From an uncultured Synergistales bacterium (lineage in GTDB: Bacteria; Synergistota; Synergistia; Synergistales; Aminobacteriaceae), in contig CAJOMU010000019.1 in assembly GCA_905235735.1 (NCBI GenBank), positions 1 through 58,102 of the forward strand: 58,102 bases of DNA, in the 5' to 3' direction. Below the pieces are notes generated by a model that saw nothing but the letters and a program-made list of their open reading frames with translations, made no database searches and was not told where the DNA came from. A program made the translations under genes and the position numbers. Positions 53,634-58,102 of this stretch are shown piece after piece (the first letter of the stretch is position 1; each line of letters opens with the position of its first letter).

Positions 53634-55067
53634 TTAGAGATTCGATACTTTGCTCAAATTCTCCCAGTCTGATAATGCCTGTGTTATTCTCTGATACCAG
53701 CCGTTCTCAAAGAAATAGCACTTTGTTACGTCCTCATGTGAGAAATAATTCTTCAGCAAATGCGAGAAATCCGGCGTATCCTTCACATCCTTTGAAAACA
53801 ACACTCCAAGACACCTGCACCCTCCGCAGCAGAACTTAAAGTATGGGCATTTTCCGCATTTAGTGCTGTTCTTGCGGAGAGTTCCGACAGTCATTTTCGC
53901 CATGTCTATATACGGACTGCTGTTTAATATATCCTTCAATGGGGTATTGTGTATATTTCCGAGACTGATTCCATGTTTCATAAACCATCCTGAAGCCTTC
54001 TCGCATGTTACGACTTCACCGGCAGATGTAACAGCAAACAGGTTGCTTGTCGCATCGCAGCAGTAATTATTATCGTGATATGTTCCGTCAGGGCATTGAA
54101 CAGTAAAAATGGAAAAACTCCGAGATTGTGGATTCAGACTGAGAAGCTGCCATATAGCAATATACATAGTCATATCACTTTTGATATATTCTTCGGAAAA
54201 TCTGAGCATGTGTTCATAATATTCTTCATAGCTGAGGCTTGCATTCGGAGCATTCTGCACCCAGCGGGGAACTTCTGTAGTTCTGATCATGCGCATGATT
54301 TTAACTCCCATATCGTTCAGCATTCTTGCAGTCGGCATCATAGTATGAACATTTCTGCGGTGTACCTGAGTGTTTATGAAAACAGAAAATCCGTTGTCAA
54401 CGCACAGCTTTATAGCCTTTAGTACGCTTTGTTCAGCTCCGTTGAAATTGCGCATCCAGTCATGAGTTCCGATTCCGTCAAATGACATTCTTATCTGTGA
54501 ATGACAGCCAATGTCTTTTAATTCATCAAGTATTTCCTTCGTGATGAAATATCCGTTCGTGGTAATCGTGAAGACAGTCAGGCCGCGTTTATATACTTCG
54601 CGTATAATGTCCGTAAAGTTTTTATGCAGCATTGGTTCGCCGCCGGTAATTTGAAGGCTGTTTACTCCGCAGTCCCTAGCCTGGTCAAGAACACTGCATA
54701 TTTCCTCAAGGCTCAGTTCCGTCATAAGTGCAGAATTATCAGCAGCATTGAAGCAGTGGAGACAGTTGAAGTTGCATCTTCCCGTTATCATCAGGTTCAT
54801 CGTTGGGATGTACCTGTTGCCGCATTCACGTAACGATGACCATTCTGAAGGATGTTCTCCCTTTTCGCACGGGGTTATCAGATTTCTGATAATGAGCTGC
54901 ATAACTGTATCATTTGTTTCTATGTCATGTTCACCATCGCACAAGAGCATTGTTTGAGCTTCTTTCGGTCTCAGAAGAATCGCATTTCGTGCTCCATGTT
55001 CATAATATGAATATCCGTAATCAGTCCATTTTCGCAGAGCAATATCATCGGAAAGTTTATAGTACAT
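53634..55067 (-). CDS. RiPP-modifying radical SAM/SPASM enzyme with N-terminal RRE (PqqD-like) domain
   Basis: A 477-residue enzyme. Residues about 1-75 resemble a PqqD-like peptide-recognition element (LLRPKEAQTMLLCDGEHDI, then a helix ending LIIRNLI). The radical SAM core has CNFNCLHC (Cys98, 102, 105) and ITGGEP for AdoMet. The C-terminal SPASM region shows the full pattern: GEVVTC (Gx4C), CGKCPYFKFCCGGC (Cx2Cx5Cx3C) and a last Cys near DVTKC, so two auxiliary iron-sulfur clusters are expected. It lies 19 bases after lanM. Such enzymes make thioether, carbon-carbon or epimerization modifications on peptides; which one is not predictable here. Confidence 0.9.
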   Translation of the reverse strand: MYYKLSDDIALRKWTDYGYSYYEHGARNAILLRPKEAQTMLLCDGEHDIETNDTVMQLIIRNLITPCEKGEHPSEWSSLRECGNRYIPTMNLMITGRCNFNCLHCFNAADNSALMTELSLEEICSVLDQARDCGVNSLQITGGEPMLHKNFTDIIREVYKRGLTVFTITTNGYFITKEILDELKDIGCHSQIRMSFDGIGTHDWMRNFNGAEQSVLKAIKLCVDNGFSVFINTQVHRRNVHTMMPTARMLNDMGVKIMRMIRTTEVPRWVQNAPNASLSYEEYYEHMLRFSEEYIKSDMTMYIAIWQLLSLNPQSRSFSIFTVQCPDGTYHDNNYCCDATSNLFAVTSAGEVVTCEKASGWFMKHGISLGNIHNTPLKDILNSSPYIDMAKMTVGTLRKNSTKCGKCPYFKFCCGGCRCLGVLFSKDVKDTPDFSHLLKNYFSHEDVTKCYFFENGWYQRITQALSDWENLSKVSNL

Positions 55068-55086
55068 TGAATTTTATCCCCACTTT

Positions 55087-57783
55087 TTACAGCACTGAGA
55101 TTATTTTATCCGGGAAGGCATAACGAAGCATTTCATAGCCTATTCCGCATAACCCGTAGAAGAGCGATGCAGTTACTCCGTTGTTCTGACTGTGTGAGTG
55201 GTATCTGTAGCTGCCATCTTTCTGTTTTCGTTCGTACATGGCCGCAAGAACATCGCCTGCTGAAGCAATATCTCCAGTCGTGAGATAATATTCAACGACT
55301 GCGGAATTCGCACAGCATAAATGATCTGATACATTCAACGGAACTTTGTCTATGCTCTCACGTGCAAAATGTCTGAGAGTTTCCGCAGCTTCACCGCCTG
55401 CATTCCCAATTCTGTGAAGCATTATGCCGATGCCCGGAGCACCATAACAGTAACCGTGCATGTAAGTTTTCGGAGGAAAATCACGCATATCTGCCCATGT
55501 CCCGAATTTGCCTGAATACTGACGGTAGTTTTCAAGCTCGTAATTCAGTGCCTCGAATGCTGGAGGAATATATTTGTCGTCATCAAGAACTTCAGATGCC
55601 GCTAAAAGTGCCGCCGCTATTCCTGCCATACCATGACCTCCGCCGCTTATCACTCTTGGAAAATCCGTTAATGTCTTCCACAGAACATGACCGTGATATT
55701 CAAAGTCTTTCAGCTCAAGAAGCCTGTCTGCCGCAGAACGTATAATCTTCGTGTACTTTCTGTACTCGTCAAACCTGCATAGTGTCGAAACTACACCTGC
55801 TACACCTGTGATTATGTCTGACTTCGTGCATTTCTGAAAATCAGTGTCCTCTAATTCAGCTAACATTTCACTGCAAAGGGCATCAAGTCTTTCTTTGTCG
55901 TAAGGTCTGTAACGCTTAATCAGAGCAAGAGCCTTCAGAATTCCGTCTAAACCGCCTGCTTCACCAAGAGGCGCAATACTGTCAGGATGATTTTCGGGAT
56001 CTCTCAGACGTTTCAGGAGGTAATTTATCTCATCAATCGTTTCATGAAGGAAATAATCTGCAAGCTCTTTAACATGCGCATCATTTCTGACGTATTCCAG
56101 TGCTGACACGAATAACGCCATTCCTGGGAAACCGTTATAGAGAGTGTAATCGCTGAACGCAAGAGAAAAATTTGACGCATTTGTATATCCCCAGAGAAAT
56201 TTCCCGTCAGGAGCAGGTATCTTCAGGTCATACATCTCATCAAGGATTCGTCTGGCTTCACTTAATGCCGTATCAACGGATAACGGAACACCTTTTCTTT
56301 CAGCTTTTGTGATTACTCCAGGTTCATGCTTCCCAAGATTTACGGGATAGTCTCTGATTGCATGGTCAATGCATGCAAGATCAAATAACTCGTCCTTGTC
56401 GTCCATCGCATAAAGCGTATCGAGCATATGATCTACTGCTGACATGGTGAACTGGTTATGAATAAGTTCTTCTCCCTCTCCGTATACTGAAAGGCTGTCA
56501 GTGTAAGTGTAGAAGTACGGCACATCTCCGCGTTGAAGCTGCTTAATTTCACTGGCAATAACTTTTTCTTCCGTATCCTTTTTGTACTTGTGAAAAAGTT
56601 CAGAGAGTATTTGCATCGTCTGATTCATGCTTTCTTCGGATTCAAACGCTGAATGATGATACAGTTTACGCAGTATATCTCCGTAAACCCTCGTTGCACG
56701 CTCAATATATCTTACCGGCATTTTAGGCGGAAAAGCACGAACTATCTCTGCAATTTCTTCCCTGTGAGCCAATGCACGCGCATATGCATCATGATAGCCC
56801 TGTTTGAACGAATCAAGATAATTCAGAACCGTAACTTTCTTGCCGTCAACAACAGGTGCATTCCCTTCTTTGCGTAGATCCATAAGTATGCTGAACTCGA
56901 ACTCTACATCACGCTTTTTGAGTTTGCTCGGCATAATCAGCGAGCCCAAGACCGAATGCATCATATAGCTTCTATTTGAATCTTTCGTATCAGACGAAAC
57001 AGGATAAAACACGGTCTCAAGGTCAATGATATACGGCTTCGTTCCGCATGAAAGAATGTTCGTGTGATGCAGATCCGTACTTCCGCACAGTTTCGCGAAA
57101 AGCGTCAGACCTCCGGCTGAATACCAGAATCGTTCTGCTTCTTCATGGCCTTCTGCACAGCGTTTTTCGATGAACTCACAGACACCGAAACTTTTTCCGA
57201 ATGCAATTGACTTAGGAATTCCTACAAATTCATCAAAGAAACGTTTCGCAAGATGATATACCTGTTCGTCTCCGCGCATATCATGAGGCTTATACACAAG
57301 TTTTCCTGAATCTGTGTGAACGATTATTACACTCCGCCCGTTGTTGTGCGTATCTCCGTCATCAAGCGTTATGTCATCAATCGTGCGGTAAACCTTTCCG
57401 TCAGTCAGTGCAGAACAAATTGCATCGCGGTTTTCGTCCATGCGTGAGAACATCTCAAGGAATCCGTCCGTAACACCAGTAAGCTGGCGGTTAAGAGTGT
57501 CAATAAGCAGCTCAGGTATGATTAATTCTCCGTCATCAATCTGCTGTTCGGCGGTCTCAAGAGCTTTCTTCCTGTCTTCATCCGTGAGAAGTTCGGGTAC
57601 TTCTGCAAACGGATTATCAGACATGATCTGAGCCAGGATTTTTGTCTCTGTGCTTTTCGTGATGAGGAAGGCAAGATGCCTGAGGACATCTTCAATTTTT
57701 TTGAAGACATTTTCCCCAAGCATTCCCGACTGCGGACAACTTTTGACGCGTTCAAGCTGAAATTCTATATACTTCTGAAACAT
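55087..57783 (-). CDS. lanM: Class II lanthipeptide synthetase LanM (three-cysteine zinc type)
   Basis: An 898-residue bifunctional enzyme. The N-terminal kinase-like dehydratase has KLVYKP (161-166), STDLHHTN (235-242) and DLETVF (254-259), used to phosphorylate and eliminate Ser/Thr. The C-terminal LanC-like cyclase has GHG with His717, and zinc ligands Cys779 (CYGAPG) and Cys823-Cys824. Usual LanMs have Cys-His at the last site; Cys-Cys is the ProcM-like CCG group, here with Ala in place of Gly. Start: ATG at 57783, five bases after the precursor stop; a TTG further up lies within the precursor gene. The protein is slightly short for LanM, mainly at the N-terminus. No separate LanT is in the window. 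Confidence 0.94.
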   Translation of the reverse strand: MFQKYIEFQLERVKSCPQSGMLGENVFKKIEDVLRHLAFLITKSTETKILAQIMSDNPFAEVPELLTDEDRKKALETAEQQIDDGELIIPELLIDTLNRQLTGVTDGFLEMFSRMDENRDAICSALTDGKVYRTIDDITLDDGDTHNNGRSVIIVHTDSGKLVYKPHDMRGDEQVYHLAKRFFDEFVGIPKSIAFGKSFGVCEFIEKRCAEGHEEAERFWYSAGGLTLFAKLCGSTDLHHTNILSCGTKPYIIDLETVFYPVSSDTKDSNRSYMMHSVLGSLIMPSKLKKRDVEFEFSILMDLRKEGNAPVVDGKKVTVLNYLDSFKQGYHDAYARALAHREEIAEIVRAFPPKMPVRYIERATRVYGDILRKLYHHSAFESEESMNQTMQILSELFHKYKKDTEEKVIASEIKQLQRGDVPYFYTYTDSLSVYGEGEELIHNQFTMSAVDHMLDTLYAMDDKDELFDLACIDHAIRDYPVNLGKHEPGVITKAERKGVPLSVDTALSEARRILDEMYDLKIPAPDGKFLWGYTNASNFSLAFSDYTLYNGFPGMALFVSALEYVRNDAHVKELADYFLHETIDEINYLLKRLRDPENHPDSIAPLGEAGGLDGILKALALIKRYRPYDKERLDALCSEMLAELEDTDFQKCTKSDIITGVAGVVSTLCRFDEYRKYTKIIRSAADRLLELKDFEYHGHVLWKTLTDFPRVISGGGHGMAGIAAALLAASEVLDDDKYIPPAFEALNYELENYRQYSGKFGTWADMRDFPPKTYMHGYCYGAPGIGIMLHRIGNAGGEAAETLRHFARESIDKVPLNVSDHLCCANSAVVEYYLTTGDIASAGDVLAAMYERKQKDGSYRYHSHSQNNGVTASLFYGLCGIGYEMLRYAFPDKIISVL

Positions 57784-57788
57784 TTTAA

Positions 57789-58085
57789 TCAACACTGGCA
57801 ATCAGTCGGCTGTATACAACCTTGAGTTAAATCACATATATTAGTATACTCAAAAGGATCACCGTCGCCGCCAGCAGCATTGTCAAGCTCCTCATCGCTG
57901 AGTTTTATCGGTTTGTCCTGTGCTGTCTTCTCCGCAACGAATTCTTTCAGCTCATCATATGTTGCATCGCAATCGTGAGCCTTCAGAAAATCCGTTACTT
58001 TTTCTGCCTTCACTGCCTCTGCTAATGCCTTCTTCAGGTCATCGCTCTTCTTGATTTCCTCGTACATTTCCTGCAAGGTCTTCAT
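57789..58085 (-). CDS. lanA: Nif11-leader lanthipeptide precursor
   Basis: A 98-residue precursor. Residues 1-73 form a Nif11-like leader (helical, acidic, with the FLKAHDCDATYDELKEF segment) ending in LSDEELDNAAGG, a double-glycine cleavage site after Gly73. The 25-residue core has Thr81, Cys84, Thr87, Cys90, Thr94, Cys96 and Cys98, and no Ser. Expected rings join Thr81-Cys84, Thr87-Cys90 and Thr94-Cys96 or -Cys98, leaving one cysteine over. The ATG at 58085 has GGAGG 8 bases upstream. LanM and the radical SAM enzyme follow directly, so all three likely form one operon that continues beyond the window edge. Confidence 0.92.
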   Translation of the reverse strand: MKTLQEMYEEIKKSDDLKKALAEAVKAEKVTDFLKAHDCDATYDELKEFVAEKTAQDKPIKLSDEELDNAAGGDGDPFEYTNICDLTQGCIQPTDCQC

Positions 58086-58102
58086 TGTCAATTCCTCCGT
58101 TC

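Follow-up and report, generated by a model that had tools for sequence, protein, structure and literature searches.

Gene content of the contig end

The window, by which we mean the whole stretch of DNA analysed here, is a full contig (C19) of 58,102 bp from a 2.1 Mb genome, and its right end carries three genes lying head-to-tail on the minus strand. These are a 98 aa Nif11-leader precursor gene (57789..58085, ATG at 58085), a gene for an 898 aa LanM class II lanthionine synthetase (55087..57783, ATG at 57783) and a gene for a 477 aa radical SAM/SPASM RiPP maturase (53634..55067). The gaps of 5 bp between precursor and LanM and of 19 bp between LanM and radical SAM gene, like the coordinates, reproduce the original prediction of three adjacent genes on one strand. 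Beside the radical SAM gene, and outside the cluster, lie fatty-acid genes and a gene whose product, judging by sequence and location, is a FapR-like regulator.

Against TIGR03798, the model of the Nif11 leader, the precursor reaches 30.4 bits, which is 1.9 bits below the cut-off of 32.3, and it carries the expected double glycine; its assignment as a precursor also draws on leader identity within the array described below. The 73 aa leader (57867..58085, minus strand) is of the same type as in clostridial LanM-linked precursors and closes with the motif AAGG, such that the peptide reads LDNAAGG immediately before the core DGDPFEYTNICDLTQGCIQPTDCQC (57792..57866, minus strand). This core contains the T-x-x-C motifs TNIC and TQGC and a C-terminal CxC, and holds three threonines, no serine and four cysteines, so the anticipated maximum of three dehydrations is right.

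Five precursors with one leader and hypervariable cores

The end of another contig of the same genome, C21, shows an exact 79-bp overlap with the end of C19 and contributes four further complete precursors, giving five in tandem, with the precursor of the window as the fifth and last. The five genes are spaced 36-65 bp apart and have a common upstream sequence. Their leaders have a mean identity of 84% at the amino acid level and 89% at the DNA level, while their cores share 14% and 47%, respectively, and one core, VIPYTHMFCGNMAIRDRE, has a single cysteine and a single threonine. The join of C21 to C19, made on the 79-bp overlap and gene context, is backed by a reindeer Synergistales genome (G012), in which a precursor and the start of LanM have, within a few kb, a homologue of the tyrosine-phosphatase-like gene of C21. 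The single precursor of the original prediction is thus an artefact of a contig that stops inside the cluster and, granted the contig join, the sequence describes a multi-precursor cluster with hypervariable cores.

It had also been suggested that a protease or transporter might lie beyond position 58102, but no cluster-linked exporter or protease was found in the read part of C21. Past the four precursors, this contig carries a glycoside-hydrolase-like gene and, further off, a methionine-type ABC transporter (metNIQ-like). The sole C39 peptidase found in the genome is that of an unlinked ABC exporter on contig C25, accompanied by a second ABC protein (L113:3298-7621), and these two share 54% and 43% identity with their counterparts at the clostridial locus L067, where a C39-ABC gene followed by an ABC gene stands ahead of the precursors. 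In UBA7014, a C39-ABC gene is likewise present on the contig bearing the remainder of the radical SAM gene. We infer that the C25 exporter probably serves this cluster.

A LanM with a prochlorosin-type zinc site

The LanM protein scores 426 bits against TIGR03897 (cut-off 304), exceeds the cut-offs of PF13575 (DUF4135 dehydratase) and PF05147 (LANC_like), and retains the dehydratase motifs GDTH, YKP, DLHHTN, DLET and RATR intact. A profile of the LanM clade to which it belongs matches LicM2 (6st5) with an E-value of 9e-56. Judged by its domains and conserved residues it is a class II lanthipeptide synthetase, for which a (methyl)lanthionine product is predicted. In the LanC-like cyclase domain (55105..56154, minus strand), alignment to LicM2 places C779 and C823 at zinc ligands and C824 at the position of the LicM2 histidine, and the resulting 'CC' motif is kept in all aligned clade LanMs that reach this region. 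As ProcM-like enzymes are reported to have this motif (PMC10783134), the zinc site would be of the prochlorosin Cys3 ('CCG') type. With a CCG-type LanM and several hypervariable precursors under a common leader, the cluster is prochlorosin-like in its sequence features, granted the contig join.

A radical SAM/SPASM enzyme with an RRE-like N-terminus

The third protein scores 80 bits against PF04055 and 38.5 bits against the SPASM family PF13186 (cut-off 21.5), and is 55-56% identical to clostridial LanM-linked radical SAM enzymes. It contains the radical SAM cluster motif CNFNCLHC (C98, C102 and C105; 54753..54776, minus strand) and a SPASM domain with a complete seven-Cys motif (C337, C355, C404, C407, C413, C417 and C450; 53718..54059, minus strand), and the presence of CxxxCxxC together with the seven-Cys motif marks it as a SPASM RiPP maturase. 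A seven-Cys SPASM motif predicts two auxiliary clusters. An AF2 model of the first 95 residues, built from eight sequences, reached a pLDDT of 82.7, and the best 11 structural matches in VIA-align were all RRE-carrying RiPP maturases or partner proteins, among them lasso B1, TbiB1, TigE, cyanobactin heterocyclase, PbtF, ThcOx and SuiB. The best of these matches had a Z of 5.6 over 65 residues, a modest value that denotes fold resemblance, and a Pfam search of the enzyme for PqqD/RRE domains gave no match. The predicted fold of residues 1-68 (54864..55067, minus strand) lends support to the RRE-like domain proposed earlier for this enzyme, and to putative leader binding by it.

Naming the reaction from known families was attempted and rejected, as the enzyme falls far below the curated cut-off of every NCBIfam family listed, including the sactipeptide and ranthipeptide maturase models (StsB, 97 vs 625 bits; AlbA, 75 vs 850 bits), and the nearest PDB sequences are remote. 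A full-length model built from five sequences (pLDDT 53) had SkfB and SuiB as its best fold matches, both weak. We rank a crosslink first, either a thioether on a spare cysteine or a C-C/C-O bond, at about even odds. Peptide epimerisation, which would leave D-residues and no crosslink, is improbable. The enzyme has the full seven-Cys SPASM motif and, to our knowledge, epimerases of the PoyD/OspD type are without SPASM; in fold, the enzyme here comes closest to SkfB and SuiB, albeit in a poor model, and it reaches no listed NCBIfam cut-off. Precedent is what favours an epimerase, as landornamide is a characterised case of a LanM and a radical SAM enzyme (OspD with OspM) on one precursor (PMC10028609), and carnazolamide provides another pairing of a LanM-type enzyme with an epimerase (PMC10676384).

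The enzyme pair is conserved across two phyla

A scan of GTDB genomes, seeded with LanM alone, returned eight clade loci and a ninth match (L070) outside the clade; with the window, the clade comprises nine loci, spread over two phyla and eight genomes, all draft assemblies and mostly MAGs. The hosts besides the window are a goat Synergistaceae (G035), the reindeer Synergistales G012, in which the cluster is decayed, and five rumen Clostridia genomes. Its goat and reindeer relatives place the window in a Synergistaceae lineage of the gut. The radical SAM gene follows LanM at all nine loci, directly in seven (the decayed copy among them) and with two small genes in between at the other two; a radical SAM gene of this clade is found after LanM wherever downstream DNA is present. 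Whether the radical SAM gene is retained beside LanM in relatives, the check proposed with the original prediction, is thereby answered affirmatively. The order precursor-LanM-radical SAM recurs on contig C47 of G035 (JAFPWQ010000087, goat abomasum), and at L063 (Oscillospiraceae) and at L064, L067 and L069 (Clostridia) the radical SAM gene stands directly after LanM with Nif11 precursors upstream. The linked leaders resemble one another across phyla and differ from the leaders of the radical SAM-only clusters of the window's genus.

In G012 (contig C106, CAJOLN010000106; L030:1-1424 and L050:1-1139), LanM and the radical SAM gene are both broken by short deletions: a deletion disrupts the reading frame of LanM, and the end of LanM runs into residue 133 of the radical SAM enzyme through a short sequence that the two share. 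Either genuine decay or misassembly may explain this; that the two genes are broken together counts in favour of the hybrid-cluster reading given below.

The LanM clade is rare. Of the 43 species in the genus, just four have any LanM match, one of which is unrelated, leaving at most 3 of 43 for the clade, and among 391 sampled Clostridia the clade LanM was present in one, the seed genome itself. A LanM pair in genome G024 was considered as a clade member and rejected, being a different, distantly related locus (L049:6967-16889) at which two tandem LanM-like genes are accompanied by methyltransferase, flavodoxin/NADPH-reductase-like, YcaO-like and stand-alone radical SAM genes, and no Nif11 precursor was found.

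Further genes accompany the pair in the Clostridia. In two Ruminococcus genomes (L065:3331-4759 and L066:2734-4161), LanM and the radical SAM gene are separated by two genes, one for a VanY-like D,D-carboxypeptidase lipoprotein and one for a small membrane protein, which could possibly be immunity genes. Downstream of the radical SAM gene, L064, L067 and L069 carry genes for a STAS anti-sigma-factor antagonist, a PP2C-type phosphatase and an anti-sigma kinase-like protein, with a possible role in regulation.

In a tree of 36 radical SAM sequences, the seven LanM-linked enzymes of Synergistota and Bacillota form one clade (support 98/98), which is nested among LanM-free Oscillospirales-type enzymes, and the radical SAM-only genes of the window's own genus fall on the other side. 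The identities agree with this placement, at 55-56% to the clostridial LanM-linked enzymes and 24-28% to those of its own genus. The LanM and radical SAM trees agree in their order, and a single radical SAM clade with matching trees fits the transfer of leader, LanM and radical SAM gene as a unit. Such a transfer would probably have been between rumen Clostridia and Synergistaceae. These data bear as well on whether the radical SAM gene merely happens to sit beside LanM in this genome, in which radical SAM genes are abundant (nine matches). Such a chance neighbourhood is very improbable, as the pair, its order and the leader type are repeated in eight genomes of two phyla with one radical SAM clade and matching trees.

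The G012 cluster appears to sit between dhaK and fapR, with its precursor side by dhaK on one contig and its radical SAM side by fapR on another. In G035 and G039, dhaK and fapR are directly adjacent (L119:340-2058 and L121:165-2046), an apparent empty site; the G035 cluster is located elsewhere. Carriage by phages or plasmids was also considered and set aside, with no LanM relative in IMG/VR and no match to the radical SAM enzyme in PLSDB, where absence is weak evidence.

Relatives of the radical SAM enzyme also occur without LanM. The window's genus shows a genus-wide expansion of LanM-free clusters of Nif11 precursor and radical SAM/SPASM gene, with three in this genome and several in G024. 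In such clusters (L034:8749-10570, L033:8252-10923, L032:9565-11600 and L035:5981-13020) the cores are very diverse in type, and one, ESWWEIYKRLLESLGA, is without cysteine. Relatives in Oscillospirales-type genomes (L100:6963-9200, L104:3733-6905 and L105:10577-14810) adjoin arrays of precursors with zinc-ribbon-like cores that have several CxxC motifs and a C-terminal CxYExGxWxCNN-like motif.

Do both enzymes act on the same peptide?

In eight short cores linked to the enzyme pair, [ST]xxC was observed 11 times vs 4.6 expected (0.0016 of shuffles), and as the -3 spacing was the best of five spacings tested, the corrected value is ~0.008. The same motif was observed three times vs 5.4 expected in 19 cores of radical SAM-only clusters. 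The cores of L064, L065, L067 and L069 were excluded from this count; they are 45-56 aa long, with a conserved cysteine near the start, another in the middle and a GRLC end. Several linked cores terminate in C[ST]xCxC or CxC, and spare cysteines are present in some.

Taken with the gene content and its conservation, the reading we prefer, with a probability of roughly 0.75, is a horizontally spread class II lanthipeptide/radical SAM hybrid RiPP cluster whose several substrates are hypervariable, and we consider it likely that a single peptide is modified by both LanM and the radical SAM enzyme. Against the preferred reading count the rarity of the LanM clade, the draft state of the genomes, the basis of the contig join in a 79-bp overlap and gene context, the modest RRE match, the clostridial cores, most of which are longer and without the S/T-x-x-C pattern, and the existence of LanM-free relatives of the radical SAM enzyme, which could therefore modify other peptides. 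Indeed, LanM and the radical SAM enzyme could divide the labour, working on different precursors of the array or, for the radical SAM enzyme, on other Nif11 peptides of the genome, such that no peptide is doubly modified. The relatives that occur beside Nif11-type peptides without LanM are compatible with this, as are the strongly divergent cores, one of which offers one cysteine and one threonine. A division of this kind is nevertheless unlikely, given that the five leaders are near-identical and both enzyme types read leaders, that G035 and L063 show a single precursor by the pair, though on short contigs, and that the radical SAM-only leaders of the genus are of another type.

Under the hybrid-cluster reading, five precursors with a near-identical Nif11 leader would be made, and LanM would dehydrate threonine and serine and form (methyl)lanthionine rings, for the most part at [S/T]-x-x-C. 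The N-terminal RRE-like domain of the radical SAM enzyme would bind this leader as well, and the enzyme would employ its SAM cluster and the two predicted auxiliary clusters to introduce a second, oxidative modification, for which a crosslink is the likeliest form. A C39 ABC exporter, here probably the unlinked one on C25, would then cleave the leader at GG. The module of leader, LanM and radical SAM gene would spread as a unit among rumen bacteria. The order of these steps, the export route and the radical SAM chemistry are those that we infer. A bolder form of this proposal has every precursor processed by two promiscuous enzymes, the ProcM-like LanM and the SPASM enzyme, which would create a natural combinatorial system of lanthionines and a novel radical crosslink; it is possible and offered tentatively.

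Relation to known systems and implications

The SPASM maturases SkfB, SuiB, CteB and TigE likewise combine an RRE-like domain, a radical SAM core and a SPASM-type domain, and SkfB, SuiB and TigE are included in the top fold matches, but their aligned identity to the enzyme here is ~15-20%, and we know of none that is paired with a LanM. A close parallel on the LanM side is the prochlorosin system, which also has a Nif11 leader with GG, one LanM serving many hypervariable cores and a Cys3 'CCG' zinc site (PMC10783134); it differs in that the characterised system is without a radical SAM partner, belongs to marine cyanobacteria and has many precursors unlinked from LanM. Landornamide A (OspA/OspM/OspD/OspR) is the precedent for a LanM and a radical SAM enzyme modifying the same precursor (PMC10028609). 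That system has a proteusin precursor with a nitrile-hydratase-type leader, a peptide epimerase and an arginase, whereas the present cluster has a Nif11 leader, a SPASM enzyme and no arginase seen; assignment as a landornamide-type proteusin was rejected on the leader type and the SPASM domain. The lah cluster of Lachnospiraceae C6A11 (LahA1-9, LahT) shares conserved Nif11 leaders, diverse cores and a C39 exporter (PMC6363468), but its description mentions no radical enzyme, the word 'radical' occurring 0 times in that paper. In the carnazolamide (cca) pathway, a divergent LanM-type dehydratase and a radical SAM enzyme act on one peptide (PMC10676384), yet with YcaO azoles, a LanM-like/class III cyclase fusion, an epimerase and a nitrile-hydratase-type leader.

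Radical SAM genes within lanthipeptide BGCs have been noted by genome mining, as reported by Walker et al. 2020 (PMC7268733), whose passages on this co-occurrence do not describe the present clade of Nif11, LanM and SPASM. In the openly available full-text literature, we found no description of a Nif11 precursor, a ProcM-like LanM and a SPASM radical SAM enzyme as a conserved unit. LanM and a radical SAM enzyme on one peptide, Nif11 with LanM, and Nif11 multi-precursor clusters are each known separately, and it is the combined unit for which no description was found; as its components are already known, the cluster is no new category.

If the hybrid-cluster reading is true, this locus would be a compact and recurring case of two very different crosslinking chemistries that evolved around a common leader, and would offer at least five natural cores for testing. 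ProcM-like enzymes would have in the radical SAM enzyme a possibly promiscuous partner with which doubly constrained peptide libraries could be made, and the products would be a small group of peptides that may act between bacteria in the rumen. Should the promiscuous form also be true, the products would combine lanthionine rings with a radical-made crosslink so far unseen beside lanthionines, as the first of their clade and in two rumen phyla.
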